53,280 bases of DNA from Betaproteobacteria bacterium. Lineage in GTDB: Bacteria; Pseudomonadota; Gammaproteobacteria; Burkholderiales; Rhodocyclaceae. Both the position numbers and the translations under genes were made by a program. Positions 3,623 through 52,471 of this stretch are shown in pieces. Location of the stretch: NCBI GenBank assembly GCA_016868295.1, contig VGHJ01000016.1, positions 1-53,280 on the forward strand, given 5' to 3'. The notes under the pieces were generated by a model that searched no databases, was not told the DNA's origin, and worked only from the letters and a program-made list of their open reading frames with translations. Numbering within the stretch: position 1 is the first letter of the stretch; each line of letters starts with the position of its first letter.

Positions 3623-4537
3623 ATGGCGCACGACCCTCACGGCCATCACCATCACTATGGCCACGCCGCCTTCCTGCCGGCGGCGCTCGCCGTCACCCTG
3701 CTCTATGCGGGGGTGGAAGCCGGCGCCGGCTGGTGGGCCGGTTCGCTGGCGCTGCTCTCCGACGCCGGCCACATGCTCACCGACGCCCTGGCCCTGGCGC
3801 TCGCCGCCACCGCCGCCTGGGCGGCGCGGCGCCCGCCGACGGCGCGCCTCAGTTTCGGCCTGCAGCGCATCGAGATCCTCGCCACGCTGGGCAACGCCGG
3901 CTTCATGCTGGCGGTGATCCTCGCCATCGCCTGGAGCGCGATCGACCGCCTGCTGCATCCGGTGCCGGTGGCCGGCCTCACGGTGACGGTGGTGGCGATC
4001 GTCGGCCTCGTCGTCAACCTCGGCGTCGCCTGGCTGCTGGCGCACGGCGAATCGACGCTCAACACGCGCGCGGCGCTGCTGCACGTGCTGGGCGATCTCG
4101 CCGGCTCGGTGGCGGCGCTGGCCTCGGGCCTCGTCATCCACTTCACCGGCTGGACGCCGGCCGACCCGCTGCTCTCGCTGCTCATCTGCGGCCTCATCCT
4201 GCTGTCCACCCTGCGCCTGGCGCGCGAGGCGGTGCACGCCCTGCTCGAAGGCGTGCCGCCGAGACTGACTTTGCCGGACGTCGGCCGCCGCATGGCCGCG
4301 GTCGACGGCGTCGTCTCGGTGCACGACCTGCACATCTGGTCGCTCTCCTCGCAACGCAGCGCACTCTCGGCGCACGTCGTCGTGCGCGACCTCGAGGCCT
4401 GGCCGCGCATCCTCGATGCGCTGACGCACGCATTGCACGACGACTTTGAAATCTCGCACGCCACGCTCCAGCCCGAGCTTTTCCGTCCCGTCCTGTACGC
4501 CATCGACGAACCGGCCAGACCCCCGCAAAACGGCTGA
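3623..4537 (+). CDS. Cation diffusion facilitator family transporter (Zn/Cd/Co efflux type)
   Basis: A 304-residue inner-membrane metal/proton antiporter. It has a short histidine-rich N-terminus (HGHHHHYGH), six predicted membrane spans to about residue 210, and a C-terminal cytoplasmic domain (VVSVHDLHIWSLSS). The paired HxxxD metal sites are intact: H50/D54 in SDAGHMLTD and H154/D158 in HVLGDLAGS. The HD-HD arrangement is typical of zinc/cadmium exporters of the CzcD/ZitB group. It begins eight bases after the preceding fusion enzyme and may be co-transcribed with it. Residues 214-217 are encoded by a run of rare codons that forms a copy of the recurrent word GACTGACTTTG (4263-4273). Confidence 0.9.
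   Translation: MAHDPHGHHHHYGHAAFLPAALAVTLLYAGVEAGAGWWAGSLALLSDAGHMLTDALALALAATAAWAARRPPTARLSFGLQRIEILATLGNAGFMLAVILAIAWSAIDRLLHPVPVAGLTVTVVAIVGLVVNLGVAWLLAHGESTLNTRAALLHVLGDLAGSVAALASGLVIHFTGWTPADPLLSLLICGLILLSTLRLAREAVHALLEGVPPRLTLPDVGRRMAAVDGVVSVHDLHIWSLSSQRSALSAHVVVRDLEAWPRILDALTHALHDDFEISHATLQPELFRPVLYAIDEPARPPQNG
4263..4273 (+). repeat. Recurrent word GACTGACTTTG, copy 1 (coding)
   Basis: This copy lies inside the cation transporter gene and encodes R-L-T-L with the codons AGA CTG ACT TTG, which look unusual in a gene otherwise rich in G/C-ending codons. It is one of nine related copies in the window. Confidence 0.6.
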
Positions 4538-4579
4538 AACCGGCCGGAAACCCGCGCCAGTCCTAGTGTGCGGCGCGAC

Positions 4580-4595
4580 ATACTATATCTAGTGG
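4580..4595. promoter_or_regulatory. NrdR box upstream of nrdJ
   Basis: The 16-mer matches the NrdR consensus ACACTATATATAGTGT at 13 of 16 positions, counted by eye. NrdR is the ATP/dATP-sensing repressor of ribonucleotide reductase genes. A weaker half-match ending TAGTGT lies at 4554-4569, 26 bases upstream. That is not the usual 31-32 base spacing, so a canonical double box is not shown. Confidence 0.65.
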
Positions 4596-4669
4596 GCATT
4601 TCTTATTGATTACACAAGACATTTTGCCAACTCATTGTTATTGAAGAAATAAATATTTTTGAAAACCTG

Positions 4670-4698
4670 TTCACATGGCCGGATCGAAGCAGTATATT
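4670..4698 (+). promoter_or_regulatory. sigma70-type promoter of nrdJ
   Basis: A -35 element TTCACA (4670-4675) and a -10 element TATATT (4693-4698) are separated by 17 bases. Each matches the consensus at five of six positions. Transcription would start near 4705, giving a leader of about 37 bases, which is too short for a cobalamin riboswitch. The upstream 4596-4669 stretch is strikingly AT-rich for this genome. Confidence 0.65.
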
Positions 4699-4741
4699 GG
4701 TTGCCGGTCAGAATCAACCCGAACATCGGAGAAAAAAACAG

Positions 4742-7624
4742 ATGAGCACAACTCTGTCTTCACAAAACAACCAAGAGACAAAGCTCCGCGACGACAACAC
4801 ACTCCCTGCTGAACAAGAAATATCCGGCGAAGTCCTGCTCGAGAAGTACGCCAAGGGTAACGAGCAGGACGTGCACGATGTGCGCGCCCGCGTCGCGCGC
4901 GCGCTGGCCGCCGTCGAAGCGGAGGACAAGCGCGCCCACTGGGAAAAACTCTTCCTCGAGGCGCAGGAAAACGGCTTCGTGCCGGCCGGCCGCATCAACT
5001 CCGCCGCCGGCACCGACCTGCAGGCGACGCTGATCAACTGCTTCGTGCAGCCGGTCGGCGACTCCATCTCGGAGGTCGTCGACGGCCGTCCCGGCATCTA
5101 CACCGCGCTGTCGCAGGCGGCGGAGACGATGCGCCGCGGCGGCGGCGTCGGCTACGACTTCTCCTCGATCCGCCCGGTCGGCGCCTTCGTCAAGGGCACG
5201 CACTCGCGCGCCTCGGGCCCGGTGTCCTACATGCGCGTGTTCGACCGCTCCTGCGAGACGGTGGAATCCGCCGGCGCGCGCCGCGGCGCCCAGATGGGCG
5301 TGCTGCGCTGCGACCACCCGGACATCGAGATGTTCATCCACGCCAAGGACCAGGGCGACCTGACGAACTTCAACATCTCCATCGGCGTGACCGACGCCTT
5401 CATGCAGGCGGTCGAGCGTGACGGCGACGTCGAACTGGCGCACAAGGCCGAGCCCTCGGCCGACTTCAAGGCCGCCGGCGCCTACCAGCGCGACGACGGC
5501 AGCTGGGTGTACCGCAAGGTGCGCGCGCGCGAGCTGTGGGACCAGATCATGCGCTCGACCTACGACCACGCCGAGCCGGGCATCCTCTTCCTCGACCGCA
5601 TCAACCGCGACAACAACCTCAACTACTGCGAGACCATCGAGGCCACCAACCCCTGCGCCGAGCAGCCGCTGCCGCCCTACGGCTGCTGCTGCCTCGGCTC
5701 GATCAACCTGACGCGCTTCGTCAAGCACGCCTTCACCAAGAAGGCCGAGTTCGACTACGCCGGCTTCGGCCGCTGCGTCGAGATCTCCACACGCATGCTC
5801 GACAACGTGCTCGACGCCACGCACTGGCCGCTGCCGCAGCAGCAGGCGGAAGCCAACGCCAAGCGCCGCATCGGGCTCGGCTTCACCGGCCTGGGCGACG
5901 CCCTGATCATGCTCGGCCTTCGCTACGACACGCAGGAAGCCCGCGCCAAGGCCACCGAGATCTCGGCCTTCATGCGCGACCGCGCCTACCTCGCCTCGGT
6001 CGAGCTGGCCAAGGAGCGCGGCGCCTTCCCGCTCTTCAACGCCGACCTGTATCTCTCCGGCGGCAACTTCGCCTCGCGCCTGCCGGCCGAGATCAAGGAA
6101 CAGGTCCGCAAGCACGGCATCCGCAACTCGCACCTGCTGTCGATCGCGCCGACCGGCACCATCTCGCTGGCCTTCGCCGACAACGCCTCGAACGGCATCG
6201 AGCCGCCGTTCTCGTGGACCTACACGCGCAAGAAGCGCATGACCGACGGCACGCACAAGCAGTACTCGGTCGAGGACTACGCCTGGCGCCTGTACAAGTA
6301 CCTCGGCGGCGACATGGCCAGGCTGCCGCCCTACTTCGTCACCGCGCTGGAAATCTCGGCGCAGGCGCACGAGGAGATGGTCGCGGCGGTCGCCCCCTAC
6401 ATCGACACCAGCATCTCGAAGACGGTGAACGTGCCGGAGGACTACCCCTACGCCGATTTCGAGGACCTCTACCTGAAGGCCTGGAAGTCCGGCTTGAAGG
6501 GCCTCGCCACCTATCGCCCGAACAAGGTGCTCGGCGCCGTGCTCTCCGTCGACGGCGCCGCCAGCGAGAAGAAGCAGCCGCAGGACGTACAGATCAACGA
6601 CGCCAACCGGCGGCTGGTCATCAAGACCCTGCCGGCGCCGGTGCTCGCCAGCCTGCGCTGGCCCGGCCGCCCGCGCATGACCGACGGCAACTCGGCGTGG
6701 ACCTACATGATCGAGACGCCGCACGGCGAGTTCGCCCTCTTCGTCGGCCACATCGAGCAGAACGCCAAGCCGGTGCCCTTCGAGGTGTGGGTGAACGGCT
6801 CGGAGCAGCCGCGCGGCCTCGGCGCGGTGGCCAAGACGCTGTCGATGGACATGCGCGCGCAGGACCGCGCCTGGCTCAAGCTCAAGCTCGACACGCTGGC
6901 GCGCACCCGCGGCGAGGAGACCTTCGACATGCCCTTCCCGCCGCACGGCGAGAACAAGCGCATGCCCGGCGTGGTCGCCGCCGTAGCGCAGGTGGTGCGC
7001 TACCGCGTCGAGCAACTCTGCGGCAACCTCGACGAGAAGGTGCCGACCCCGGTGCTCGACTCGATGTTCAGCCTGCAGGAGCCGAAGACCGGCACCGACG
7101 GCACGCTGTCATGGACGGTGGACATCCAGAACCCCGCCTCGGGCGAGGACTTCGTGCTCGGCCTGAAGGAAATCACCCTGCCCGACGGCGTGACAAGGCC
7201 CTACTCGATGTGGCTCTCGGGCAACTACCCGCGCGCGCTCGACGGCCTCTCGCACGTCCTCTCGCTCGACATGCGTGTCATGGACCCGGCCTGGATCGGC
7301 ATGAAGCTGCGCAAGCTCTTGAACTATCCCGAGCCGCTCGGCGACTTCATGGCCTTCGTGCCCGGCACGCGCAAGCAGCAGAACTGGCCCTCGACGGTCG
7401 CCTACATGGCGCGCCTCATCATGCACCGCTACGCCATGCTCGGCATCCTCGACGAGAACGGCTACCCGACGCGCGAGATGGGCATCCTCGAAGCGCCGCG
7501 CGAAGCCAGCGCGCCGAAGATCATGCAGGGCGCCCTCTGCAAGGAGTGCGGCAACTACACCGTGATCAAGAAGGACGGCTGCGACTTCTGCAGCGCCTGC
7601 GGCGCCGTGGGAGCCTGCGGGTAA
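4742..7624 (+). CDS. nrdJ: Adenosylcobalamin-dependent (class II) ribonucleotide reductase
   Basis: A 960-residue enzyme that reduces ribonucleotides to deoxyribonucleotides with B12, working with or without oxygen. Visible features are C100 in TLINCFVQP, the GGGVGYDF loop at 133-140, the active-site N303-P-C305-A-E307 in [15 protein letters not shown], and [10 protein letters not shown]. Two TSCPD-like domains follow from about residue 620. The cysteine-rich C-terminal tail ([18 protein letters not shown]) is the swinging thiol/zinc tail. I chose the ATG at 4742 because GGAG stands ten bases upstream (4728-4731); an in-frame start at 4697 would lie on the promoter itself. Regulation by NrdR is suggested by the box at 4580. 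It is a single-gene unit ending at a strong hairpin. Confidence 0.95.
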
Positions 7625-7651
7625 CCAATCCCGCTGACTCGGTTGGAAATA

Positions 7652-10134: not shown

Positions 10135-10398
10135 ATGAACATCGAGAAGATCAAGGTCCGCGTCACCCAGTCCGGCCAGACCATGGACGTCGTCGTCCTC
10201 AACAAGCGGGCGGGCGGCATCACGGTGGTGCTCGGCGAGGGCCAGCACAGCATGAAGTGCGAGCTGTCGCCGACGCGCAACGGGCTGGCCTACGCCGGCA
10301 GCGTGATGGGGCGGGAGATCGTCTACGAGCGCAGCCGCGAGCAGGTGCAGGCCGACATCGACCGCCTCAACCCGGCGGTGCGCGAGTACCGGCGCTGA
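10135..10398 (+). CDS. Hypothetical protein (87 aa)
   Basis: An 87-residue basic, beta-rich soluble protein beginning MNIEKIKVRVTQSGQ, with no signal peptide. The ATG at 10135 is preceded by AGGGGGAA at a suitable distance. The frame is open further upstream only because it runs through hslR. It follows hslR by 47 bases and ends at a hairpin at 10400-10452 facing the convergent hydrolase gene. I do not recognise the family. Confidence 0.7.
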   Translation: MNIEKIKVRVTQSGQTMDVVVLNKRAGGITVVLGEGQHSMKCELSPTRNGLAYAGSVMGREIVYERSREQVQADIDRLNPAVREYRR

Positions 10399-10399
10399 C

Positions 10400-10452
10400 G
10401 GCGCCGTCCCGCCCGGACTGACTTTTCCCCTATCGCGACGGCGGGTGGCGCC
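10400..10452. terminator. Hairpin between convergent genes, with the recurrent word in its loop
   Basis: GGCGCC (10400-10405) plus CCCGCC (10408-10413) pairs with GGCGGG (10440-10445) plus GGCGCC (10447-10452), giving two six-base stems with a small bulge. The 26-base loop carries GGACTGACTTTT. The right arm overlaps the end of the hydrolase gene. It could terminate transcription from both sides. Confidence 0.5.
10415..10426 (+). repeat. Recurrent word GGACTGACTTTT, copy 2 (intergenic)
   Basis: This is an intergenic copy of the word found nine times in the window, placed in the loop of the hairpin between two convergent genes. Confidence 0.65.
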
Positions 10453-17022: not shown

Positions 17023-17760
17023 ATGCCCAAGCTCCTGCCCCTCGGCGACGCCGCATGGACCGTCGAGTTCGGCGAAGCCGTCGACCCCGCCCTGCACGCC
17101 CGCGTGATGGGCTTCGCGCAGGCCCTGGAGCGGGCGGCGCTGCCGGGCGTGATCGAATGGGTGCCAACCTTCCGCTCGTGCACGGTGCATTTCGATCCGC
17201 TTTCGCCGCTGGCCGACGGGCTCGGCGAACGCCTGCTGGAAATCGCCGCCGGCGCGCCCGCCGCCGCCGTCTTGGGGCGGCGCTGGCGTATCCCCGTCCT
17301 CTTCGGCGGCGAAGCCGGGCCGGACCTTGCCGAACTAGCGGCCCGTTGCGGCACGAGCGCAGAAGCCATCGTGGCGCGCATGACGGCCGCCGTGTTCCGC
17401 GTCTACATGCTCGGCTTCATGCCGGGCTTTCCCTACATGGGCGGCCTGCCCGAGGAACTCGCCATGCCGCGCCTGGCGACGCCGCGCAAGCAGGTGCCGG
17501 CGCGCAGCCTGGCGGTGACCGGCACGCTGTGCGCCATCTACCCTTTCGCCAGTCCGGGTGGCTGGCGCCTGCTCGGCCGCACGCCTCTTGCCCTGTTCGA
17601 CGTGCGCCGGCCGGCGCCGGCCCTTTTCGCGCCCGGCGACGAAGCGATGTGGCAAGCGATCGACGCAACCGAGTGCGCCCGGCTCGAGGCGGAGGAGGCG
17701 GCAGGCCGTCTCGATCGCGCGGCGTTTCTCGTCGCGCCGGAGGCGCCGTGGCCGCGCTGA
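17023..17760 (+). CDS. pxpB: 5-oxoprolinase subunit PxpB (KipI-like)
   Basis: A 245-residue protein of the KipI/AHS1 family. Typical blocks are LGDAAWTVEFGE at the N-terminus, FRVYMLGFMPGFPYMGGLPEEL and TPRKQVPARSLAVTG, then ASPGGWRLLGRTPLALFD. With PxpA and PxpC it forms the ATP-dependent prokaryotic 5-oxoprolinase, which opens 5-oxoproline to glutamate. It starts four bases after the marR stop, and pxpC starts inside its last codons. Confidence 0.92.
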   Translation: MPKLLPLGDAAWTVEFGEAVDPALHARVMGFAQALERAALPGVIEWVPTFRSCTVHFDPLSPLADGLGERLLEIAAGAPAAAVLGRRWRIPVLFGGEAGPDLAELAARCGTSAEAIVARMTAAVFRVYMLGFMPGFPYMGGLPEELAMPRLATPRKQVPARSLAVTGTLCAIYPFASPGGWRLLGRTPLALFDVRRPAPALFAPGDEAMWQAIDATECARLEAEEAAGRLDRAAFLVAPEAPWPR

Positions 17761-18794
17761 TCGAGGTGCTCGACGGCGGCCTCGCCACGACGGTGCAGGA
17801 CGCCGGCCGCCCGAGCCATCGCCGCTTCGGCGTCGCCCTGTCTGGCGCGCTCGATCCTGCCCTGTTCGCCTGCGCCAACGCGCTGGTCGGCAATGCGCCG
17901 AAAGCCGCCGCGCTGGAGTTGCGCCTGGCCGGGCCGCGCCTGCGCGTCGCCGGCGGCCGCGTGCGCGTGGCGCTGGCCGGCGCGGCCAAGGGTGAAGTAA
18001 TGTGCGCCGTGTCGCGCAGACTGACTATTGCGCCGTGGCAGAGCGTCACGCTGGAGGAAGGCGACGAGTTGAAGATCGGCGCCGTGCGCGGCGGCGTCGC
18101 CTACCTCGCCTTCTCCGGCGGTATCGCCACGCCGCCGCTGCTCGGCAGCCGCGCCACCCACCTGCGCGCCGGCATGGGCGGCCTCGCCGGGCGCGCGCTC
18201 GCGCCGTGCGACCGGCTGCCGGTCGGAGCGGCGGAAGTGCAAGGCCCCGAGCGCAGGCAGGCCGCCTTCCTGCACGAAAGCGGCCCGATCCGCCTGCTGC
18301 CCGGCCCTCAGGACGACAACTTCGTGCCTGAGGCGCTGCGCGCGCTGGTCGAAGAAGAATTCATCGTCAGCCGCGACGCCGACCGCATGGGCCTGCGCCT
18401 GCAGGGGCCACGGCTGGAACACGACCCGCGCTTCGGCGATGAAATAGTCTCGGACGGGGTCGCGCCCGGCGCCATCCAGGTGCCGCCGGACGGACAGCCG
18501 ATCCTGCTGCTCCCCGACTGCCAGACCGTCGGCGGCTACCCAAAGATCGCCACGGCGATCCGCGCCGACCTGCCGCGGCTGGCGCACCTGCTGCCGGGCG
18601 AGCGACTGCGCTTCGCCTTCGCCACGCGCGCGGAAGCGGTGGCGGCATTGCGCGCGCAGCAGGCGCGCCTCGCCGCCTGGATCGACGGCATCGCGCCGCA
18701 CGTGCCGGCCGGCGCCATCGACGAGGAAGCGCTGTATTCGGCCAATCTGATCAGCGGCACGCTGTACGATGGTGCGGAAGGAGACGAATCATGA
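17748..18794 (+). CDS. pxpC: 5-oxoprolinase subunit PxpC (KipA-like, biotin-dependent carboxyltransferase fold)
   Basis: A 348-residue protein of the KipA/AHS2 family, recognisable from GGLATTVQDAGRPSHRRFGV near the N-terminus, then FSGGI, LLGSRATHL, and the C-terminal LLLPDCQTVGGYPKIATAI. The GTG at 17748 is chosen: it places the conserved start of the domain within a few residues and overlaps pxpB by 13 bases. The frame open further upstream is a shadow of pxpB. A variant copy of the recurrent word (18018-18030) codes for R-L-T-I inside this gene. Confidence 0.9.
   Translation: MAALIEVLDGGLATTVQDAGRPSHRRFGVALSGALDPALFACANALVGNAPKAAALELRLAGPRLRVAGGRVRVALAGAAKGEVMCAVSRRLTIAPWQSVTLEEGDELKIGAVRGGVAYLAFSGGIATPPLLGSRATHLRAGMGGLAGRALAPCDRLPVGAAEVQGPERRQAAFLHESGPIRLLPGPQDDNFVPEALRALVEEEFIVSRDADRMGLRLQGPRLEHDPRFGDEIVSDGVAPGAIQVPPDGQPILLLPDCQTVGGYPKIATAIRADLPRLAHLLPGERLRFAFATRAEAVAALRAQQARLAAWIDGIAPHVPAGAIDEEALYSANLISGTLYDGAEGDES
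18018..18030 (+). repeat. Variant of the recurrent word (AGACTGACTATTG), copy 3 (coding)
   Basis: It differs from the main form by one base (TATT for TTTT). It encodes R-L-T-I with AGA CTG ACT ATT, the same codon pattern seen in copy 1. Confidence 0.4.
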
Positions 18795-20730: not shown

Positions 20731-20742
20731 AAAAGTCAGTCC
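20731..20742 (-). repeat. Recurrent word GGACTGACTTTT (minus strand), copy 4 (intergenic)
   Basis: Read on the minus strand this is GGGACTGACTTTT, ending two bases before the ATG of the 387-residue gene. It lies between that gene and the TauD-type gene. Confidence 0.65.
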
Positions 20743-20854
20743 CAGTCCAACGCCGGGCCGCCCCTAGTTGGGCTGAAGTCAACGACACGGAAGCCGCGCA
20801 GCGGCTGAACCGTCGTTACCCCCGTCCACGGGAACGGGGCCAGGGGGATGGTCA

Positions 20855-30891: not shown

Positions 30892-32868
30892 ATGTCGGCC
30901 ACCAACGAGAAATCCGATAGCCAGCAACTGAACTTCCGTCGCTACAAGGACGGCGACAGCAAGCACGTGCCCTGGAACAAGCACATCTTCCAGGCCAGCT
31001 ACTCCTACAAGTGCCCGACCTACATCCAGTCGACGCCGCCCTGCCAGGGCAGCTGCCCCTCCGGCGAGGACATCCGCGGCTACCTCAACATCGTGCGCGG
31101 CATCGAGAAGCCGCCGGTCGGTGCCGACGGCAAGCCGGTCATGCCGTGGCAGGAATACGCCTGGCGCCGCCTCACCGAGGCCAACCCCTTTCCGGCGGTG
31201 ATGGGCCGCGTCTGCCCGGCGCCCTGCGAGACCGGCTGCAACCGCAATGCCCTGGAAGACCACGTCGGCATCAACTCCGTCGAGCACTTCCTCGGCGACT
31301 ACGCCATCCAGAACAAGCTGCAGTTCAAGGCGCCCGAGACGAAGACCGGCAAGAAGGTGGCGGTCATCGGCGGCGGCCCGGCCGGCCTCTCCTGCGCCTA
31401 CCAGCTGGCGCGCATGGGCCATGAAGTGACGATCTTCGACGAGCACGAGTTCCTCGGCGGCATGATGCGCTACGGCATCCCCGGCTTCCGCACGCCGCGC
31501 GACCTGCTCGACGCCGAGATCCAGCGCATCCTCGAACTCGGCGTCAAGGCGCAGCTGAAGACGCGCATCGGCACAGACATCAGGATGGAGGACATCCGCA
31601 AGCAGTACGACGCGGTGTTCCTCGGCCTCGGCGCCCAGGGCGGCCGTGCGCTGCCCTGCGAGGGCAACGACGCCCCCAACGTGGTCACCGCGACCGCCTT
31701 CCTGCGCGCCTTCAACGACGGCCGCATGCGCCACGTCGGCAAGCGCGTGGTGGTGGTCGGCGGCGGCGACACCTCGATCGACGTCGCCACCGTGGCGCGC
31801 CGCCTCGGCGCCATCGACGACCCGAAGCCGACCGATCACGCCGAGGAGGTCATCGGCGGCCGCGCCGCCCATGACGTCGCCGAGATTTCCGCCCGCCAGG
31901 GCGCCGAAGTGACCCTGACCTCGGTGTTCGGCGTCGACAAGATGCAGGCCAACAAGCACGAGATCGAACAGGCCAGGGCCGAAGGCATCGATATCCGCGG
32001 CGGCTGGGCGCCGGTCGGCGTGGTGCGCGGCGCCGACGGTCGCGCCACCGCCTTGCGCATCGCCCAGTGCGAGGCCAAGTTCGTCGGCCCGAAGCTCGAG
32101 ATCAAGATGCTGCCCGGCACCGAGCAGGACGTCCCGGCCGACCTCATCGTCTCGGCCATCGGCCAGGCGGTCGATTTCACCGGCCTCGAGGAATTCGATT
32201 CCGGCAAGGGCGGCATCGTCGCCGACAAGAACTACCAGGTGGCCGGCAAGCCCGGCGTGTTCACCGGCGGCGACGTCGTCCGCCCGCATCTGCTCACCAC
32301 CGCCATCGGCCACGGCTGGATCGCTGCCGAGGGCATCGACCGCCACCTGCGCGGCGAGGAGCAGGACAAGCGCGCCAAGATCGACGTGCACTACTGGGAC
32401 ATGCAGAGGAAGCTCGTCGAGTCCGGCAAACCGGTCGAGCCGGTGAAGGAGCCGCTGCGCGGCACCGACGCCTCCAAGGGCGCGGTGCACAACTTCGACA
32501 ACCGCTCCGACCGCTACGTCATCACGCACAAGGAGCTGTTCCTCGGCCATTTCAGCTACACGCCGCGCAACATCCGCGGCGTCATCACCCTGAACAAGGA
32601 GCAGGCGCTGGGCAATTTCCAGGAGCGCCTCGGCGGGCTCGACGAGAAGCAGGCGGTGGCGGAAGCCAAGCGCTGCATGAGCTGCGGCCAGTGCTTCGAG
32701 TGCGACAACTGCGTGGTGTACTGCCCGCAGACGGCGGTCAAGCGCGTGCCGAAGAAGGAGGCCACCACCGGCCGCTACGTCTACACCGACTACAACAAGT
32801 GCATCGGCTGCCACATCTGCCACGACGTCTGCCCGACCGGCTACATCCAGATGGGCCTCGGGGAGTGA
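30892..32868 (+). CDS. dsrL: DsrL, NAD(P)H:acceptor iron-sulfur flavoprotein
   Basis: A 658-residue protein like the glutamate synthase small chain. It has N-terminal cysteines (CPTYIQSTPPCQGSCPSGED, VCPAPCETGCNR), an FAD-binding motif VAVIGGGPAGLSCAYQLARM at about residue 158, and a pyridine-nucleotide motif VVVVGGGDTSIDVATVARR at about 285. C-terminal ferredoxin sites follow (CMSCGQCFECDNCVVYC, CIGCHICHDVCP). In sulfur oxidisers it accepts electrons from DsrAB and reduces NAD. It is a strong marker of the oxidative pathway. The stop overlaps the region of the dsrJ start. Confidence 0.95.
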   Translation: MSATNEKSDSQQLNFRRYKDGDSKHVPWNKHIFQASYSYKCPTYIQSTPPCQGSCPSGEDIRGYLNIVRGIEKPPVGADGKPVMPWQEYAWRRLTEANPFPAVMGRVCPAPCETGCNRNALEDHVGINSVEHFLGDYAIQNKLQFKAPETKTGKKVAVIGGGPAGLSCAYQLARMGHEVTIFDEHEFLGGMMRYGIPGFRTPRDLLDAEIQRILELGVKAQLKTRIGTDIRMEDIRKQYDAVFLGLGAQGGRALPCEGNDAPNVVTATAFLRAFNDGRMRHVGKRVVVVGGGDTSIDVATVARRLGAIDDPKPTDHAEEVIGGRAAHDVAEISARQGAEVTLTSVFGVDKMQANKHEIEQARAEGIDIRGGWAPVGVVRGADGRATALRIAQCEAKFVGPKLEIKMLPGTEQDVPADLIVSAIGQAVDFTGLEEFDSGKGGIVADKNYQVAGKPGVFTGGDVVRPHLLTTAIGHGWIAAEGIDRHLRGEEQDKRAKIDVHYWDMQRKLVESGKPVEPVKEPLRGTDASKGAVHNFDNRSDRYVITHKELFLGHFSYTPRNIRGVITLNKEQALGNFQERLGGLDEKQAVAEAKRCMSCGQCFECDNCVVYCPQTAVKRVPKKEATTGRYVYTDYNKCIGCHICHDVCPTGYIQMGLGE

Positions 32869-32870
32869 CC

Positions 32871-33245
32871 GTGAAAGCGATCGTCATCGCCGTGCTGTGG
32901 GGACTGACTTTTGCCGCGGCGCACGCGGCGGAGCCCGGCCGCACGCCGCTGCCGGCGATCGCCATCGAGAAGCCCGGCCAGTGCGTCGAGCCGAAGGAGC
33001 TCATGCGGCGCGACCACATGAAGCTCCTTCAGCACCAGCGCGACAAGACCATGCATCAGGGCATACGCACGAAGAAGCACAGCCTGAACGAGTGCATCGC
33101 CTGCCACGCCGGCCAGAAGACCGGCACGGTGCTCGGCAAGGACGGCTTCTGCCAGAGCTGCCATGAGTACGCCGCGGTGAAGCTCGACTGCTGGGACTGC
33201 CACCAGCCCAAGCCCGGCCAGAAGACCGCGGGAGCCAAGCCATGA
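32871..33245 (+). CDS. dsrJ: DsrJ, periplasmic triheme cytochrome c of DsrMKJOP
   Basis: A 124-residue protein with an N-terminal signal/anchor helix. It has three CxxCH haem sites: C75-H79 (CIACH), C94-H98 (CQSCH) and C107-H111 (CWDCH). C38 is placed where the unusual Cys haem ligand of DsrJ is expected. The GTG at 32871 is chosen with GGGGAG upstream; another in-frame GTG is at 32865. The signal peptide contains GLTFA, coded by a copy of the recurrent word at 32901-32913. Confidence 0.9.
   Translation: MKAIVIAVLWGLTFAAAHAAEPGRTPLPAIAIEKPGQCVEPKELMRRDHMKLLQHQRDKTMHQGIRTKKHSLNECIACHAGQKTGTVLGKDGFCQSCHEYAAVKLDCWDCHQPKPGQKTAGAKP
32901..32913 (+). repeat. Recurrent word GGACTGACTTTTG, copy 5 (in dsrJ signal peptide)
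   Basis: The word codes for G-L-T-F with GGA CTG ACT TTT, codons that look unusual in this GC-rich operon. It lies in the signal peptide region of dsrJ, where sequence is least constrained. Confidence 0.65.
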
Positions 33246-33976
33246 GCGAGAACAAGAGCCGTCGCGGCTTCATCGCCGCCTCGACCGCCGCCCTGGCGGG
33301 ACTGACTTTGGCCCCCGGCATCCGCCTAGTCGAGATCGCCTCCGCCAAGCCGGACAACGAACCCGTCACGTCGAAGGTGCGCTGGGGCATGCTCATCGAC
33401 ACCTCGCGCTGCCAGAGCGGCTGCACCGATTGCGTCACCGCCTGCGGCAAGGAGAACGGCCTCGGCGAAGTGAAGAAGCCGCGCACCGACGCACAGTGGA
33501 TCCGCAAGATCGACCTGAAGGAACTCAAGAGCGGCCACGCCCTCTCGCTGCCGATGATGTGCCAGCACTGCGCCCACCCGCCTTGCGTGGACGTCTGCCC
33601 GACCGGCGCCTCGTTCAAGCGCGCCGACGGCATCGTGCTGGTCGACCGCCACATCTGCATCGGCTGCCGCTACTGCATGATGGCCTGCCCGTACAAGGTG
33701 CGCTCCTTCGTGCACGAGCCGCACACCGACCAGAACCCCGAGGTGCCGCGCGGCCAGGGCTGCGTCGAGGGCTGCACGCTGTGCGTGCATCGCGTCGACC
33801 GCGGCGGCACCCCGGCCTGCGTCGAGGCCTGCGCCGCGGCCGGACACAACGCCATGCTGTTCGGCGACCTGAACGACCCCGAGAGCGCCATCGCCAAGCG
33901 CATCCGCGAGGTGAAGACCACCCAGGTGCGCGCCGACCTCAAGCTCGACCTCGGCGTCCGCTACGAAGGGATTTGA
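33242..33976 (+). CDS. dsrO: DsrO, periplasmic iron-sulfur subunit of DsrMKJOP
   Basis: A 244-residue ferredoxin-like protein exported by Tat. The signal SRRGFIAAS (R7-R8) and hydrophobic stretch are at the N-terminus. Several four-cysteine sites follow (RCQSGCTDCVTACGKEN, MCQHCAHPPCVDVCPTG, HICIGCRYCMMACPYK, CVEGCTLCVHRV...CVEAC). The ATG overlaps the dsrJ stop by four bases. A copy of the recurrent word lies inside the Tat signal (33298-33310). Confidence 0.93.
   Translation: MSENKSRRGFIAASTAALAGLTLAPGIRLVEIASAKPDNEPVTSKVRWGMLIDTSRCQSGCTDCVTACGKENGLGEVKKPRTDAQWIRKIDLKELKSGHALSLPMMCQHCAHPPCVDVCPTGASFKRADGIVLVDRHICIGCRYCMMACPYKVRSFVHEPHTDQNPEVPRGQGCVEGCTLCVHRVDRGGTPACVEACAAAGHNAMLFGDLNDPESAIAKRIREVKTTQVRADLKLDLGVRYEGI
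33298..33310 (+). repeat. Recurrent word GGGACTGACTTTG, copy 6 (in dsrO signal peptide)
   Basis: It codes for G-L-T-L with GGA CTG ACT TTG in the Tat signal of DsrO. Two consecutive genes (dsrJ and dsrO) thus carry the word at equivalent signal-peptide positions, 397 bases apart. Confidence 0.65.
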
Positions 33977-43568: not shown

Positions 43569-45209
43569 CTATTCGATGGCGGAAACGGACTTGGCCCGCT
43601 CCCGCAGGATGAACTTCTGGATCTTGCCGGTGGACGTCTTCGGCAGCGGGCCGAACACCACCTTCTTCGGCACCTTGAAGCGCGCCATCCGCTCGCGGCA
43701 GAAGTCGATGAACTCGGCCTCCGTCGCCTGGGCGCCCTCCTTCAGCTCGACGAAGGCGCAGGGCACCTCGCCCCACTTCGGATCGGGCGTGGCCACCACC
43801 GCCGCCGCCAGCACGGCGGCGTGGCGGTAGAGCACGTCCTCCACCTCGACCGAGGAGATGTTCTCGCCGCCGGAGATGATGACGTCCTTGGAGCGGTCCT
43901 TGATCTTGACGTAGCCGTCGGGCTGCATCACGGCGAGATCGCCGGAATGATACCAGCCGCCACGGAACGCCTCCTCGGTCGCCTTGGGATTCTTCAGGTA
44001 GCCCTTCATGGTGATGTTGCCGCGGAACATGATCTCGCCCATGGTCTCGCCGTCGCGCGGCACCGGCTGCATCGTTTCCGGGTCCATCACCGTGACGCCT
44101 TCCTGCAGGTGGTAGCGCACGCCCTGGCGGCCGTTCAGGCGCACCTGTTCCTCCAGCGGCAGCGCGCTCCACTCGGGGTGCCGGGCGCAGACCGAGGCCG
44201 GGCCATAGGTCTCGGTCAGGCCGTACACATGCGTGATGTCGAAGCCGATCCGGTTCATGCCCTCGATCATCGAGGCCGGCGGCGGCGCCGCCGCCACCAG
44301 CGCGCTGACTTTGTGATCGATGCCCTCGCGCCATTCCGCCGGCGCGTTGATCAGCATCGAATGCACGATGGGCGCGCCGCAGTAGTGCGTCACCTTGTGC
44401 TCACGGATGGCGTCGAGGATGGCCTTCGCTTCCACCCTGCGCAGGCAGACGTTGGTGCCGGCATTCGCGGCCATGGTCCACGGGAAGCACCAGCCGTTGC
44501 AGTGGAACATCGGCAGGGTCCACAAATACACCGCATGCGGCGGCATGCCCCAGGAGACGATGTTGGAGACGGCGTTGAGATAGGCGCCGCGATGATGGTA
44601 GACCACGCCCTTCGGGTTGCCGGTGGTGCCCGAGGTGTAGTTGAGCGAGATGGCGTCCCATTCGTCGGCCGGCCCCTGCCAGGCGAAGGCGGGATCGCCC
44701 GAGGCGAGGAAGGCCTCGTAGTCGACGCTGCCGAGGCGCTCGCCCGGGCCGCTGTATTCTGGATCGTCCACGTCGATCACCAGCAACTCGCGGCCGATCA
44801 AACCCAGCGCCCTGGAGACGGTCGGCGAGAACTCGCGGTCGGTGATCAGGACCTTGGCCTCGCCGTGGTCGAGCATGAAGGCGATGGCCTCGGCGTCGAG
44901 GCGGGTGTTCAGGGTATTCAGCACGGCGCCGGCCATGGGCACGCCGAAGTGGCATTCCGCCATTTCCGGCGTGTTGGCGAGCATCGCGGCGACGGTGTCG
45001 TTCCTGCCGATGCCGCGCGCGGCCAGGGCCGAGGCGAGGCGGCGGCAGCGGGCGTAGGTCTCCGCCCACGTGTAGCGGCGGGCGCCGTGGATGACGGAGG
45101 TGCGCTGCGGATAGACGGACGCCGTCCGCTCGAGGAAGGAGAGCGGCGACAGGGGTGTGTAGTTGGCGGCGGTTCGGTCGAGACCGCTCTGATAGGGGTT
45201 TTCCGGCAT
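43569..45209 (-). CDS. Acyl-CoA synthetase (AMP-forming)
   Basis: A 546-residue ANL-superfamily ligase. The phosphate loop is NYTSGTTGNPKGVVYHHRG near residue 190, then the VYGLTETYGPA block (about 330), the GWYHSGDLAVMQPDGYVKIKDR hinge, and the C-terminal lysine in KTSTGKIQKFILR. It activates a medium-chain or related acid to its CoA ester for the dehydrogenase/hydratase genes nearby. A role in methylmercaptopropionate activation (DmdB-like) cannot be excluded. CTGACTTTG on the opposite strand lies inside the gene (44305). Confidence 0.92.
   Translation of the reverse strand: MPENPYQSGLDRTAANYTPLSPLSFLERTASVYPQRTSVIHGARRYTWAETYARCRRLASALAARGIGRNDTVAAMLANTPEMAECHFGVPMAGAVLNTLNTRLDAEAIAFMLDHGEAKVLITDREFSPTVSRALGLIGRELLVIDVDDPEYSGPGERLGSVDYEAFLASGDPAFAWQGPADEWDAISLNYTSGTTGNPKGVVYHHRGAYLNAVSNIVSWGMPPHAVYLWTLPMFHCNGWCFPWTMAANAGTNVCLRRVEAKAILDAIREHKVTHYCGAPIVHSMLINAPAEWREGIDHKVSALVAAAPPPASMIEGMNRIGFDITHVYGLTETYGPASVCARHPEWSALPLEEQVRLNGRQGVRYHLQEGVTVMDPETMQPVPRDGETMGEIMFRGNITMKGYLKNPKATEEAFRGGWYHSGDLAVMQPDGYVKIKDRSKDVIISGGENISSVEVEDVLYRHAAVLAAAVVATPDPKWGEVPCAFVELKEGAQATEAEFIDFCRERMARFKVPKKVVFGPLPKTSTGKIQKFILRERAKSVSAIE
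44305..44313 (+). repeat. Recurrent word, shortened form CTGACTTTG, copy 7 (coding)
   Basis: Eight core bases (CTGACTTT) match the word, but the leading A is changed. It is antisense to the acyl-CoA synthetase gene. Confidence 0.35.
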
Positions 45210-45252: not shown

Positions 45253-45870
45253 TCAGCGGCAGCGTTGGGCAATATTCAATCCGGCGGTGGCGGAACGGTC
45301 AAGGCCGCCCAGCCAGTCATGCATCTCGGCGGAGAAGGTTTCGACCGCGGCGGCCATCGCCGTCACCCCGCCGCGCGCGTCGGGCGTGGCGGAAGGTTTC
45401 GCCACGCTGAAGCTGCGCCGCGCCAGCACCTCCCCGCCCGCCGGCGCCAGCAGTTGCACGCGCGCCTCGAGAACGGCGCGGCTGTCCTTGGGCGTATCGA
45501 AAGCATGGACGAACTCGTCCAGGTCGACGCGCAGACGACAGGCGCCGCCCGCCTCGCCCGACAGCATGCGCTTGCGCAGGGCGTGGCCGAGCAAATCGGC
45601 CGGCGTCGCCGCCCAGCGGCTCTCGGCATAGCTTTGCCGGCGCTGGCTGGCGGCATAGAGCAGCCGGTACTGCATGGCCGTCGCATCCAGCCAGGACACG
45701 GCGAAGACGTCGATGCTGCGCAGGCTGGCGACGATGCGGTTGTTCGGCGCAGGCTGCACCGTACCGAGGTCGTAGTAGGCCAGGTTCGAATTCGCCTTGG
45801 GGCCGGCGCCGCAGGCGGCCAGCAACAGTGCGGAGATCAGCATGAACGCATTACGCATGGTGTGCCTCAT
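45253..45870 (-). CDS. ABC-type transport auxiliary lipoprotein of an Mla/MCE system
   Basis: A 205-residue outer-membrane-type lipoprotein with a signal peptide and lipobox (ISALLLAACGAG, Cys near residue 20). The domain is the PqiC-like ABC auxiliary family (YYDLGTV near the start of the mature part, WLDATAMQYRLLY, WAATPADLLGHALRKRM). Its ATG overlaps the stop of the MCE gene by four bases. It is thought to link the MCE protein to the outer membrane in lipid transport. Confidence 0.85.
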   Translation of the reverse strand: MRHTMRNAFMLISALLLAACGAGPKANSNLAYYDLGTVQPAPNNRIVASLRSIDVFAVSWLDATAMQYRLLYAASQRRQSYAESRWAATPADLLGHALRKRMLSGEAGGACRLRVDLDEFVHAFDTPKDSRAVLEARVQLLAPAGGEVLARRSFSVAKPSATPDARGGVTAMAAAVETFSAEMHDWLGGLDRSATAGLNIAQRCR

Positions 45871-46784
45871 TGCGCCGTGAATCCCGCCTCGCCCGGACCG
45901 GGCCGCGACGCGGGCCGGCCGAAGACGAGCATGTTGGGCGATTCCTCGATCTGATCGAGCAGGCGCGCCATCTGGCGGGAGTTGACCGCCAGCTCCTGCA
46001 GCAGCGCGTTCAGGCGCGGCAGCGTGGTCTGCGCGATCTCGCCGCCGGACTCGCCGAGCAGCGCGTCGATCTTCTTCGCCACGCCCTGCAGGCTGGCGAT
46101 CAGCGGCGGCGCCTCGCCACTGACTTTTTCCATGTTGGCCAGGGTGGCCGACAGGCGCTTCAGGTTCTCGTCGCTCAGCGCCTGCCGGAGCGAGGCCATC
46201 AATTGCGGCAGTTCCTTGGTGCTGTTCGACAGCCCGGCGGTGGCGCTCTCGACGTTGACCAGGGTCTGGCCGATGCGCTTGACGTTCTGGTCGGAGAGCA
46301 GCGCCGTGGTGCGCTCGGCCACCTGGCGCATCTGCGTCATCAACTCGGCGGCGTTCTCGCCCAGGGTGTCCATGAAGCCCGGCTGCAGTGCTATGCGCGG
46401 CAGATCGTCGTCGGTCCCCGTCAGCGGCTCCGCATTCTCGCCCTTGTCCTCGATCAGAATGGAGGCGAGGCCGGTGACGCCCTGGTAGTTGAGCCGCGCC
46501 GTCGTCCCCTTGGTGACCGGCAGGTCAGCGTCGATGCTGATGGTGATGAGGATGTTGCGCGGGTCTTTCGGATCGAGTTCGATGTCGGTCACCTTGCCGG
46601 CGCGAATGCCGCGAAAGCGCACCTGCGCCTGGGTATTGAGGCCCGACACGTTGCCCTTGGTCACGATCACGTACTCGCTCATCGCCTCGCGCCGGCCGGA
46701 GAACCAGAAGACGGAGGCGGCCACGGCCAGCCCGAGCAGGAGGGTGAAGATGCCAGCAGCAAGTGCGTGAGCCCGGCTTTCCAT
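45867..46784 (-). CDS. MlaD-family MCE protein
   Basis: A 305-residue periplasmic, inner-membrane-anchored protein. One N-terminal membrane helix (FTLLLGLAVAASVFWFSG) precedes a single MCE domain at about residues 38-115 (VTKGNVSGLNTQAQVRFRGIRAGKVTDIELDP). A long coiled-coil helical tail follows, as in PqiB/Mce-like proteins. It forms a ring that carries lipid between membranes. It is transcribed with the ATPase and permease genes upstream. Confidence 0.9.
   Translation of the reverse strand: MESRAHALAAGIFTLLLGLAVAASVFWFSGRREAMSEYVIVTKGNVSGLNTQAQVRFRGIRAGKVTDIELDPKDPRNILITISIDADLPVTKGTTARLNYQGVTGLASILIEDKGENAEPLTGTDDDLPRIALQPGFMDTLGENAAELMTQMRQVAERTTALLSDQNVKRIGQTLVNVESATAGLSNSTKELPQLMASLRQALSDENLKRLSATLANMEKVSGEAPPLIASLQGVAKKIDALLGESGGEIAQTTLPRLNALLQELAVNSRQMARLLDQIEESPNMLVFGRPASRPGPGEAGFTAQ
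46119..46129 (+). repeat. Recurrent word ACTGACTTTTT, copy 8 (coding, antisense)
   Basis: An exact ACTGACTTT core lies on the strand opposite the MCE gene, where it reads as E-K-V-S. It is one of seven exact cores in the window. Confidence 0.6.
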
Positions 46785-46790
46785 TTTTTG

Positions 46791-48682: not shown

Positions 48683-48725
48683 CCGTTCCCCCTTGTTGTA
48701 CTGATCGAGCCCGCCCGCCGCAGCA

Positions 48726-50228: not shown

Positions 50229-50252
50229 GCGGCGAATTCTACCCCGCGCACC

Positions 50253-50281: not shown

Positions 50282-50298
50282 ATCCTGCGGCTTGAACA

Positions 50299-50304
50299 TA
50301 TAAG
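50299..50304 (+). promoter_or_regulatory. -10 element of ppk1
   Basis: TATAAG matches the -10 consensus at five of six positions and lies 17 bases after the last PHO heptamer. Transcription would start near 50311, about 18 bases before the ppk1 ATG. Confidence 0.65.
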
Positions 50305-50328
50305 GGATTCCTGATTCAATTGGAATCG

Positions 50329-52431
50329 ATGAACAAAGGCTCCAGCGCCCGGCGCTTCCCCGCCGAGCATTTCCTCAACCGCGAACTCTCGCTGCTCGCC
50401 TTCAACCGCCGCGTGCTCGGTCAGGCGGCCGACGAGCGCGTGCCGCTGCTGGAGCGCCTGCGCTTCCTCTGCATCGTCTCCAGCAACCTCGACGAGTTCT
50501 TCGAGATCCGCGTCGCCGGCCTCAAGGAGCAGGTCAAGCTCGCGGTCGTCGCGCCCGGCACCGACGGCCTCACCCCGCACGAAGCCTTCCGCCTCGTGGC
50601 CGCCCAGGCCCACGACCTGGTCGAGGAGCAGTACGACCTGCTCAACGAGGTCATGCTGCCGGCACTGGAGAAGCAGGGCATCCGCTTCCTCAAGCGCAGC
50701 GCCTGGACCGAGGCGCAGGCGGCCTGGATCCGGGACTACTTCTTCCGCGAGGTGATGCCGGTGCTCACCCCGATCGGCCTCGACCCGGCGCACCCCTTCC
50801 CGCGCGTGCTCAACAAGAGCCTCAACTTCGCCATCGAGCTCGAGGGCAAGGACGCCTTCGGCCGCAGTTCGGGCGCGGCCATCGTGCAGGCGCCGCGCGT
50901 GCTGCCGCGCGTGATCCGGCTGCCGGAGGCCATCGCCGGCGCGCCGCACGGCTTCGTCTTCCTCTCCTCCGTGCTGCACGCCCATGTCGGCGAGCTGTTC
51001 TCCGGCATGAACGTGCTCGGCTGCTACCAGTTCCGCGTCACGCGCAACAGCGACCTGTGGGTGGACGAGGAGGAGATCAAGAACCTGCGCCTGGCGCTGC
51101 AGGGCGAGCTGCCGCAGCGCCATTTCGGCGACGCCGTGCGCCTCGAGGTCGCCGACAGCTGCTCGGAAGTCATGGCCGACTTCCTGCTGCAGCAGTTCGC
51201 CCTCGGCTACGACGACCTCTACCGCGTGCCCGGCATCGTGAACCTGGTGCGCCTGATGCAGGTGCCCGATCTCGTCGACCGCCCCGACCTGAAGTACCCG
51301 CCCTTCCAGCCGGGCCTGCCCAAGGTGCTCGCCAAGAACTACGACGTTTTCGCCAGCATCCGCAAGCAGGACGTGCTGCTGCACCACCCCTATCAGTCCT
51401 TCAGCCCGGTGGTCGAGTTCCTCGAGCAGGCGGTGGACGACCCCGCCGTGGTCGCCATCAAGATGACGGTGTACCGTACCGGCACCGACTCCGTGCTGAT
51501 GGATCTGCTCATGCGCGCCGCGCGCCAGGGCAAGGAGGTGACGGCGGTGGTGGAACTCATGGCGCGCTTCGACGAGGAGGCCAACATCAACTGGGCGGCG
51601 CGCCTGGAGGAAGTCGGCGCCCATGTCGTATACGGCGTGTTCGGCTACAAGACCCATGCCAAGATGCTGATGGTGGTGCGGCGCGAGGACGGCGACAAGG
51701 GAAGCGTGCTGCGCCGCTACGTGCACCTCGGCACCGGCAACTACCACCCGCGCACCGCCAAGCTGTACACCGACTTCGGTCTGCTCAGTTGCAACGAGGC
51801 GCTCTGCGCCGACGTGAACGAGGTCTTCAAGCAGCTCACCGGCCTGGGCAAGGCAAGCAAGCTCAATCACCTGCTGCTGGCGCCGTTCACCCTGCACCAG
51901 GCCATGCTCGCCGCCATCCGCGCCGAGGCGGACAACGCCCGCGCGGGAAAACGCGTGCGCATTCTCGCCAAGATGAACGCCCTGCTCGACCCGGAGATCA
52001 TCGAGGCGCTCTACGACGCCTCGCAGGCCGGCGTCACCATCGACCTCATCGTGCGCGGCGCCTGCGCCCTGCGGCCCGGCATCGAGGGGCTGTCCGACAA
52101 CATCAGCGTACGTTCCGTCGTCGGCCGCTTCCTCGAGCACACCCGCGTGTTCTACTTCTATGCCGACGGCGAGATGAAGATGTACCTCTCCAGCGCCGAC
52201 TGGATGGAGCGCAACTTCTTTCGCCGCATCGAAACCTGCTTCCCCGTGCTCGACGCCAAGCTCAAGCGCCGCATCCTCAAGGAAGGCCTCATGCCCTACC
52301 TCGCCGACAACAGCCAAGCCTGGGAGATGGACGAGGACGGCCGCTACCGCCGCAAGCGCTCGCGCAAGAAGGGCTTCTCGGCGCAGGAAGCCCTGCTCGC
52401 CGAACTCTCCCTCGCCCCACCGTCAGCCTGA
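50329..52431 (+). CDS. ppk1: Polyphosphate kinase 1
   Basis: A 700-residue enzyme that makes polyphosphate from ATP. The N-terminal domain begins FLNRELSLLAFNRRVLGQA, then SSNLDEFFEIRVAGLKEQ. The catalytic half shows KMTVYRTGTDS, FGYKTHAKM (candidate phosphohistidine about residue 443), HLGTGNYHPRTAKLYTDFGLL and the C-terminal SSADWMERNFFRRIE. The ATG at 50329 is used; an in-frame TTG at 50320 is possible. A PHO box precedes it. A hairpin with a recurrent-word copy follows. Confidence 0.95.
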   Translation: MNKGSSARRFPAEHFLNRELSLLAFNRRVLGQAADERVPLLERLRFLCIVSSNLDEFFEIRVAGLKEQVKLAVVAPGTDGLTPHEAFRLVAAQAHDLVEEQYDLLNEVMLPALEKQGIRFLKRSAWTEAQAAWIRDYFFREVMPVLTPIGLDPAHPFPRVLNKSLNFAIELEGKDAFGRSSGAAIVQAPRVLPRVIRLPEAIAGAPHGFVFLSSVLHAHVGELFSGMNVLGCYQFRVTRNSDLWVDEEEIKNLRLALQGELPQRHFGDAVRLEVADSCSEVMADFLLQQFALGYDDLYRVPGIVNLVRLMQVPDLVDRPDLKYPPFQPGLPKVLAKNYDVFASIRKQDVLLHHPYQSFSPVVEFLEQAVDDPAVVAIKMTVYRTGTDSVLMDLLMRAARQGKEVTAVVELMARFDEEANINWAARLEEVGAHVVYGVFGYKTHAKMLMVVRREDGDKGSVLRRYVHLGTGNYHPRTAKLYTDFGLLSCNEALCADVNEVFKQLTGLGKASKLNHLLLAPFTLHQAMLAAIRAEADNARAGKRVRILAKMNALLDPEIIEALYDASQAGVTIDLIVRGACALRPGIEGLSDNISVRSVVGRFLEHTRVFYFYADGEMKMYLSSADWMERNFFRRIETCFPVLDAKLKRRILKEGLMPYLADNSQAWEMDEDGRYRRKRSRKKGFSAQEALLAELSLAPPSA

Positions 52432-52471
52432 GCAGCCGCGCAAAAGTCAGTCTCCGCAGAGCGGCGGCTGC
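52432..52471 (+). terminator. Hairpin after ppk1 with the recurrent word in its loop
   Basis: GCAGCCGC (52432-52439) pairs with GCGGCTGC (52464-52471). The 24-base loop holds the recurrent word in minus orientation (52441-52455). It starts one base after the ppk1 stop. The layout parallels the hairpin at 10400-10452. Confidence 0.5.
52441..52455 (-). repeat. Recurrent word GGAGACTGACTTTTG (minus strand), copy 9 (intergenic)
   Basis: An exact ACTGACTTTT core on the minus strand lies in the loop of the hairpin after ppk1, before the toxin-antitoxin operon. Confidence 0.65.

Follow-up and report, generated by a model that had tools for sequence, protein, structure and literature searches.

Copies of the word in the window and the genome

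The window analysed here, a 53,280-nt stretch of betaproteobacterial DNA (contig VGHJ01000016.1 of assembly GCA_016868295.1), contains genes for a cation transporter, a carboxyltransferase region and a polyphosphate kinase, and the nine-base word ACTGACTTT is scattered along it. The initial annotation reported exactly seven copies on the two strands where less than one was expected by chance, and proposed an uptake or genome-signature sequence. Our recount gave the same number, at 4264 (plus), 10417 (plus), 20732 (minus), 32903 (plus), 33301 (plus), 46119 (plus) and 52443 (minus); the sites had been recognised correctly, although their positions were 0-3 bases off. Dinucleotide shuffling gave an expectation of approximately 0.07 copies and none of the 100 shuffles reached seven, and ACTGACTTT was the top 9-mer of the window by second-order Markov z-score (7 versus 0.05).

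The word forms the right half of a longer element of 25 bp, CGCCGTgYYGcnGrGACTGACTTTT, which is rigid and asymmetric and occurs approximately once per 5 kb. A position weight matrix profile of the full element found eight copies scoring at least 14 in the window:

4249-4273, plus strand: AGGCGTGCCGCCGAGACTGACTTTG, score 29.2, within a CDF-family cation transporter gene (3623-4537)
10402-10426, plus strand: CGCCGTCCCGCCCGGACTGACTTTT, score 37.4, filling the gap between convergent genes that end at 10398 and 10430
18005-18029, plus strand: CGCCGTGTCGCGCAGACTGACTATT, with the core variant ACTGACTAT, score 32.9, within a gene of the carboxyltransferase region
20731-20755, minus strand: CGGCGTTGGACTGGGACTGACTTTT, score 21.6, at the junction of two minus-strand genes, with partial overlap (20 bases) of the copy and a gene
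32888-32912, plus strand: CGCCGTGCTGTGGGGACTGACTTTT, score 41.5, the best in the window, where a small gene (32865-33245) encodes an N-terminal hydrophobic segment
33286-33310, plus strand: CGCCGCCCTGGCGGGACTGACTTTG, score 29.3, near the start of the gene 33242-33976
46104-46128, plus strand: CGGCGGCGCCTCGCCACTGACTTTT, score 19.7, antisense within the gene 45867-46784
52442-52466, minus strand: CGCCGCTCTGCGGAGACTGACTTTT, score 32.9, directly beyond the 3' end of the polyphosphate kinase gene, whose stop is at 52431

The gene at 3623-4537 matched the NCBIfam CDF superfamily over the cut-off, and the frame around the third copy (17055-18794) matched the Pfam family CT_A_B. Two of the seven exact copies, those at 20732 (minus) and 46119 (plus), have a poor left half, and the latter may be a chance or decayed copy. 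Two close variants had also been noted: the one at 18020 (ACTGACTAT) is a true copy, whereas the one at 44304 (GCTGACTTT) scored under 14.

The genome that holds the window (G000; 2,673,706 bases, 118 contigs, 99.45% complete) contains 329 copies of ACTGACTTT, 171 forward and 158 reverse, and six copies (2 + 4) of the reversed word. The plus-strand majority seen in the window (five of seven) is local. A sample of this genome (853,280 bases, consisting of 40 stretches and the window) contained 107 copies versus 0.44 and 1.27 expected under third-order and first-order Markov models, respectively, and single-base neighbours of the word were approximately at background in the same sample except for A1G (30) and T9C (11), with five others at 5. 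The count is far above the Markov background against which the initial annotation wished to see it set, and the over-representation of the word is beyond doubt.

Alignment of the 107 copies revealed that C at -12 and G at -11 are invariant (107/107). The other strong columns are C at -15 (98), G at -14 (104), C at -13 (96), T at -10 (94), G at -6 (86), G at -3 (88), G at -1 (92) and T at +9 (69). The spacing between the halves is fixed: CGCCGT begins 16 bases upstream of CTGACTTT in 96 cases, and the next most frequent spacings occur twice each. The conserved context proposed earlier, RGACTGACTTTTG, was misplaced, as conservation runs 15 bases further upstream (CGCCGTgYYGcnGrG-) and downstream little past one T. 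The profile, which was trained and refined on the G000 sample that it then scanned, found 172 elements scoring at least 14, and none when applied to a single sequence of the same length simulated under a Markov model. Decayed copies were scarce, with 184 elements at a score of at least 8, 168 at 18 and 166 at 20. The element contains no inverted repeat or palindrome. Three 25-mers folded as RNA no better than their shuffles (z 0.4 to 1.3), and an RNA element or terminator reading was dropped on this ground.

When a collection with a single genome for each of 84,980 species was scanned for the exact 25-mer, 14 stretches matched. All belong to betaproteobacterial records, among them Candidatus Desulfobacillus denitrificans AP021857.1, Sulfuritalea sp. 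PRO1, Rhodocyclaceae bacterium RHDC1, and HGW-Betaproteobacteria-12 and -14. The genus that carries the word is Candidatus Desulfobacillus (Betaproteobacteria incertae sedis at NCBI), and among the genomes searched the word is restricted to it. Twelve of the 15 congeners of G000 contain 161-499 copies of ACTGACTTT (control, 3-15), and three are word-poor: G013 with 50 (control 4), G012 with 23 (control 7) and G009 with 8 (control 11). The density of the element per 10 kb is 1.96 in G000, 1.91 in G002 (an assembly of one contig, 3,145,360 bases) and 2.73 in G001 versus 0.13, 0.05 and 0.18 in G009, G012 and G013, respectively. In other genera, none of 44 genomes exceeded its own control more than 2.5-fold for this word, dialects lying outside the search. 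The pattern CCGN10RCTGACTTT, which matched 388 times in G000, gave 0-7 matches in 398 other genomes of the order except G117 (15 matches).

G117 belongs to another family (f38). Six of its 15 matches lie within approximately 10 kb of one 290-kb contig (C45, L373), and four were true words by profile in the 7 kb examined; G433, a congener of G117, had seven matches (control 0). The words of G117 may reflect transfer from Desulfobacillus, a binning error or contamination. A replacement word in the word-poor G009 and G012 was considered and rejected, no relative of this word being found in 191 kb and 200 kb, respectively.

Placement and conservation of the copies

Genes of the G000 sample were called with a simple purpose-made caller (891 genes, 92.9% coding). 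The 172 copies comprise 119 in genes (74 sense and 45 antisense; p=0.01), 31 in intergenic DNA and 22 across gene ends, so that, as the initial annotation remarked, genes and intergenic DNA both hold copies; 31% lie outside genes or across their ends versus 7% of DNA that is non-coding. Per kb there are 0.15 copies in genes and 0.16 in divergent gaps (3 copies in 18.5 kb); co-directional gaps reach 1.07 and convergent gaps 2.21. Among the gap copies both the divergent deficit (p=9e-6) and the convergent excess (p=0.0025) were significant, and the 3' ends of genes are enriched in the word. In one of its frames the core contains a stop codon (TGA), and 4 of the 38 co-directional copies overlap the upstream gene end by the 20 bases expected from this stop. 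Most sense copies (64/74) lie in the frame A-V-x-x-G-L-T-F (..GGA CTG ACT TTT), which would suit hydrophobic segments and which agrees, across the 853-kb sample, with the earlier remark that copies impose uncommon codons.

The copies are kept in place between sister species of the genus. G000 and G002 are 82.8% identical over 171.6 kb of aligned DNA, and, with a score of at least 20 demanded in both genomes, a copy was found at the same place for 22 of 29 (G000 in G002), 22 of 28 (G002 in G000), 18 of 18 (G001 in G002), 18 of 20 (G002 in G001) and 6 of 9 (G000 in G001), the three comparisons having genomes in common. Random loss between close relatives, the outcome that would have spoken against a functional word, was not what we found. 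Among the 45 shared pairs only 1 of 450 cells had changed in ten columns (-14 to -11 and +1 to +6), whereas 56 of 315 had changed in seven loose columns (-9, -8, -7, -5, -4, -2 and +9), these column classes being picked after the consensus was seen. The remaining columns showed 2 (-15), 4 (-10), 5 (-6), 5 (-3), 3 (-1), 10 (0), 4 (+7) and 3 (+8) changes. Partner copies scoring 5-20 were few (1/29, 0/9 and 1/20), and the score threshold alone therefore does not explain the contrast between tight and loose columns. The informative columns are conserved and the loose columns vary freely.

Comparison with the word-poor G013 bears on how copies come and go. None of 11 mapped G002 copies reached a score of 20 in G013, and the sequence was of equal length at 10 of the 11 places; one of 13 mapped G000 copies was kept, and 7 of the 12 remaining places were of equal length. 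For the seven G000 copies that are missing from G002, the place was of equal length in only two cases. Most of the word-less places, though not all, thus point to substitution as the mode of change, and in-place substitution is the likely origin of the majority of copies. In an unrooted two-gene tree G013 groups with G002, with a sampled-DNA identity that is no closer (82.4% versus 82.8% for G000-G002).

Three sites of the window illustrate these dynamics. At 32888-32912 the word is present at this gene in 10 of 12 aligned genomes, including G000, and absent from G013 and G009; in G004 and G007, which are not sisters in the two-gene tree (L298, L296), it is split by a common 27-base insertion between ACT and TTT. 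At 33286-33310, 4 of 12 genomes (G000, G001, G007 and G008) have the word and eight have another sequence, of the same length in seven. This pattern is discordant with the two-gene tree, and the discordant alleles make recombination between species likely at this site. Ten genomes cover 52442-52466, six with the word (G000, G002, G004, G005, G010 and G011) and three without it (G001, G003 and G014); in G013 the core of the copy is interrupted by a 4-base gap, which suggests loss there.

The word is also carried by phages. The strict pattern was found in seven contigs of the viral collection, among which L175, L185, L198 and L374 represent related tailed phages with the word inside the large-terminase gene, assigned by PHROGs in L175 and L374 and by matching sequence in L185 and L198. 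L175 has three words scoring at least 20 in 13.4 kb and L220 has three in approximately 13 kb; these are the richest contigs read and are close to host density. A looser pattern matched at least 120 viral stretches, 80 of which were scored; 44 of these reached 20, in part owing to the 15 bases that the pattern prescribes, and most of the stretches have a single match and may be chance. The word-bearing viral contigs (L175, L185, L198, L374, L220 and L375) are possibly phages of Desulfobacillus, and the word could serve as a phage-host marker linking phages to this host in metagenomes.

Transformation machinery and candidate receptors

Type IV pilins were found in all 16 genomes, a PilT-family ATPase over the cut-off in 15, ComEC in 15 (not in G012) and DprA in 14. 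DprA was not found in G015, nor in G001, a closed and word-rich genome. ComEA is the usual periplasmic DNA receptor of transformation. Two family models (PF12836 and TIGR00426) did not detect it in the 16 genomes, which counts against the standard pathway; the sole match to these models in the genus lies in a 793-aa frame of G001, of a size that would suit Tex. Of 20 other genera of the family, seven have ComEA as a short open reading frame.

The initial annotation suggested a search for ComP-like pilins. None was identified on reading the pilin operons, no search for ComP as such having been made. A type IV minor-pilin operon has the same neighbouring genes in all ten congeners that were read (G000, G001, G002, G004, G005, G009, G010, G011, G012 and G013; loci L129:8429-11092, L133:10217-13696, L308, L309, L313, L316, L318, L323, L325 and L327). 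Its pilins fall by eye into about five unlike types, as if cassette-swapped. Species that share the word have unlike types, and the word-poor G012 and G013 have types of word-rich species. Since these types, as judged by eye, do not track the word, no obvious receptor tracks it, and the operon was rejected as the determinant of the word. A route through FimT was likewise rejected, as the GRxR DNA-binding motif was absent from all of the FimT-like proteins read in eight species.

An operon for a mannose-sensitive haemagglutinin (MSHA)-type pilus was seen in 10 of the 13 carriers of the word and in none of the three word-poor congeners (Fisher p=0.036, post hoc), absence from the latter being judged from lists of pilin and ATPase matches with no search aimed at the operon. 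In G002 it includes MshL over the cut-off and an ATPase with an MshE-related domain. The operon was recognised by sequence in G000 (where the contig ends inside it), G002, G004, G005, G008, G010 and G011, and G001, G003 and G007 were counted on position and frame length only; the carriers in which it was not seen (G006, G014 and G015) are 53-83% complete. Because the operon follows phylogeny and was found after looking, its tie to the word is a lead only.

A putative self-DNA label and its alternatives

We consider it somewhat probable that the word serves sequence-biased DNA uptake, as a label of self-DNA resembling the DNA uptake sequence (DUS) of Neisseriaceae and the uptake signal sequence (USS) of Pasteurellaceae. 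One 25-bp copy per approximately 5 kb would mark conspecific DNA for preferential transfer from cell to cell, most likely when naturally transforming cells take it up through a type IV pilus. The word would be bound by a putative DNA receptor of the cell surface or periplasm, probably one of the minor pilins; word-bearing DNA would be imported and recombined more often than word-less DNA; and this bias would spread and maintain copies at all places where the regulatory or protein sequence can accommodate them (molecular drive). The dynamics of the copies, their placement and their carriage by phages resemble those of DUS and USS, for which reason a DUS-like word is the best reading. The word likely works like an uptake sequence and is a putative member of the DUS/USS class.

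As in the Pasteurellaceae, a short strong core lies in a longer consensus (29 bp for the USS of Haemophilus influenzae; PMC1939737), and copies occur in genes and between them with an excess in non-coding DNA (65% of H. influenzae USS lie within genes that make up approximately 86% of the genome; PMC2346458). The word is also shared by a clade and carried by what may be phages of that clade, as the phages of Pasteurellaceae carry and accumulate USS (PMC6776037). Hundreds of copies and an orientation bias within genes are common to USS, DUS and this word. Unlike the USS, which has a core with AT-rich flanks and a sequence unrelated by eye, the Desulfobacillus word has two strong halves, CGCCGT and ACTGACTTT, and its hosts are GC-rich environmental betaproteobacteria in which ComEA was not found.

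The Neisseriaceae DUS, which is read by the minor pilin ComP, is likewise a genome-wide word with a single-clade distribution. GCCGT and CTGA of the Desulfobacillus word also occur in the DUS GCCGTCTGAA (PMC1939737), from which we draw no homology. Whereas the DUS is 10-12 bp long, the Desulfobacillus word spans 25 bp with approximately 10 bases between its two pieces, and it occurs in a different lineage of the NCBI taxonomy; no ComP was identified in the pilin operons read. By eye, the consensus contains no DUS dialect of 10-12 bases when set against GCCGTCTGAA and against the required core 5'-CTG-3', which together with A at +10 is common to all dialects (PMC3630211). The pattern of occurrence is that of DUS and USS: the copies are many and greatly exceed expectation, they lie on both strands and inside as well as outside coding DNA, and there is one word per clade, with copies that appear to arise by point change and are kept in related species. 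The equal lengths at word-less places fit this in both comparisons with G013 but not between G000 and G002.

Several observations weigh against an uptake function. The missing ComEA in all genomes and DprA in G001, the lack of a GRxR motif and the minor-pilin types that do not follow the word have been described above, as have the unequal lengths at five of the seven places compared between G000 and G002. Copies are fewer than the approximately 1,900 DUS of Neisseria meningitidis and N. gonorrhoeae (PMC3630211), and the scarcity of intermediate copies is sharper than gradual drive might leave. No competence data for Desulfobacillus were found in the open-licence literature searched, and a term search of the D. 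denitrificans paper (PMC8402940) returned no competence, uptake or pilus terms. The uptake or genome-signature reading of the initial annotation is nevertheless the best supported, by the genome-wide excess on both strands, the occurrence in genes and intergenic DNA and the conservation of sites, although neither ComP, in the pilin operons read, nor ComEA, with two family models, was found alongside it. A more specific version, a new DNA-exchange system in which the 25-bp bipartite word labels self-DNA without ComEA by way of a non-canonical pilus, for which the MSHA-type pilus is a candidate, or of another vehicle, is tentative and on balance doubtful.

The failure to find ComEA would also fit biased exchange by some other vehicle (phage-like particles of a gene transfer agent, conjugation from a nick site, or export in vesicles), with drive acting at packaging or donor export. 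The mosaic alleles suggest DNA exchange by an unspecified route, and four related phage contigs have the word inside the large-terminase gene. A 25-bp site every 5 kb or so would be unusual for packaging, however, only the seven viral contigs hold the stricter word, and the density in L175 and L220 is not clearly higher than in the host; we regard this explanation as unlikely. A chromosome-organising, segregation or replication site, comparable to FtsK-orienting polar sequences (KOPS), matS or the sites of nucleoid proteins, would likewise be genome-wide, asymmetric, specific over 25 bp and kept in place. KOPS, Chi and matS are over-represented oriented words as well, but they are short or regional, and KOPS and Chi are strongly strand-biased. 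In G002 (30 stretches, 598 kb, 114 copies; origin at base 1, with a dnaA-like gene at 101, and terminus at the midpoint) the leading:lagging ratio was 67:47, a polarity of 59:41 (p=0.07), so that strong origin-to-terminus polarity was not found. Spacing in G000 is near-random (mean 4.9 kb, coefficient of variation 0.90, 142 gaps) with gaps up to 25 kb, three congeners are almost without the word and some phages carry it, all of which makes a chromosomal site quite unlikely. A mobile island in the long word-free stretches was rejected, because, judged by eye, the 25-kb gap of contig C5 is occupied by housekeeping genes, and the distribution of gap lengths is close to random.

A Chi-like recombination or self-protection marker, which would spare word-bearing DNA from a nuclease and profit the phages that carry it, could account for an oriented word with a mild sense and leading bias (74:45 and 67:47) and for its presence in some phage contigs. 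Known Chi sites have 5-9 bases, far fewer than 25 bp with two conserved halves, and the weak strand bias may stem from the reading frame, in which one core frame is a stop; the polar-segregation and Chi-like options raised earlier thus fared poorly, and we consider a Chi-like marker improbable. Enrichment in convergent and co-directional gaps, where 28 of the 38 co-directional copies lie -20 to +12 bases from the upstream stop codon in gaps with a median of only 40 bases, would suit a regulatory site or transcription terminator. Yet 119 of 172 copies are inside genes in both orientations, the element forms no hairpin and its orientation to the upstream gene is 24:14 (p=0.14). The divergent gaps, which hold promoters, are not enriched, which tells against the regulator site suggested initially, and such a function is very improbable. 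Hundreds of copies of one consensus might instead represent a dispersed mobile or repeat element, such as a repetitive extragenic palindrome (REP), a miniature inverted-repeat transposable element (MITE), or the end of an intron or insertion sequence. The element is not palindromic, has no stable RNA fold or conserved flank, and varies freely in its loose columns; word-less places are of equal length in 10 of 11 (G002 versus G013), 7 of 12 (G000 versus G013) and 7 of 8 (site 33301) cases. Equal-length places form the majority in two of the three genome comparisons, and the length change expected of an inserted unit prevailed only between G000 and G002 (five of seven differ), leaving this the most remote of the explanations. 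The segregation, Chi-like, regulatory and mobile-repeat readings are all less supported than an uptake word.

To our knowledge, uptake sequences are known only from Neisseriaceae and Pasteurellaceae. These are the families named for them in PMC7811141 and PMC1939737. The Desulfobacillus word may be a third, previously unreported example of an uptake-type self label; we found no report of it in the open-licence full-text literature, most subscription papers lying outside that search. A new DUS-like word in Desulfobacillus would surprise a specialist, its function being what we infer. If the uptake reading is true, a third, independent word of this kind, long and bipartite, in GC-rich bacteria that live freely in groundwater and anammox reactors would mean that sequence-specific DNA exchange evolves repeatedly, and word-rich and word-poor species within one genus would allow a test of drive versus selection. 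It would also offer a fresh route to how a receptor reads its word, in a field where the complex of ComP with DNA has yet to be resolved and ComN is so far predicted (PMC12061091, PMC12616744).

Other words were over-represented as well. In the window, AAATATTT occurred four times (a both-strand count of a palindrome) versus 0.009 expected, and GTTGTAGTA four times versus 0.015. A second family, CCCTCTCCC / CTCTCCCGCAA, is perhaps a repeat element, with 43 copies of CCCTCTCCC in the G000 sample versus 2.5 expected; in the word-poor G009, CGGGAGAGAG, which resembles the CCCTCTCCC words of G000, was strongly over-represented (10 versus 0.07).

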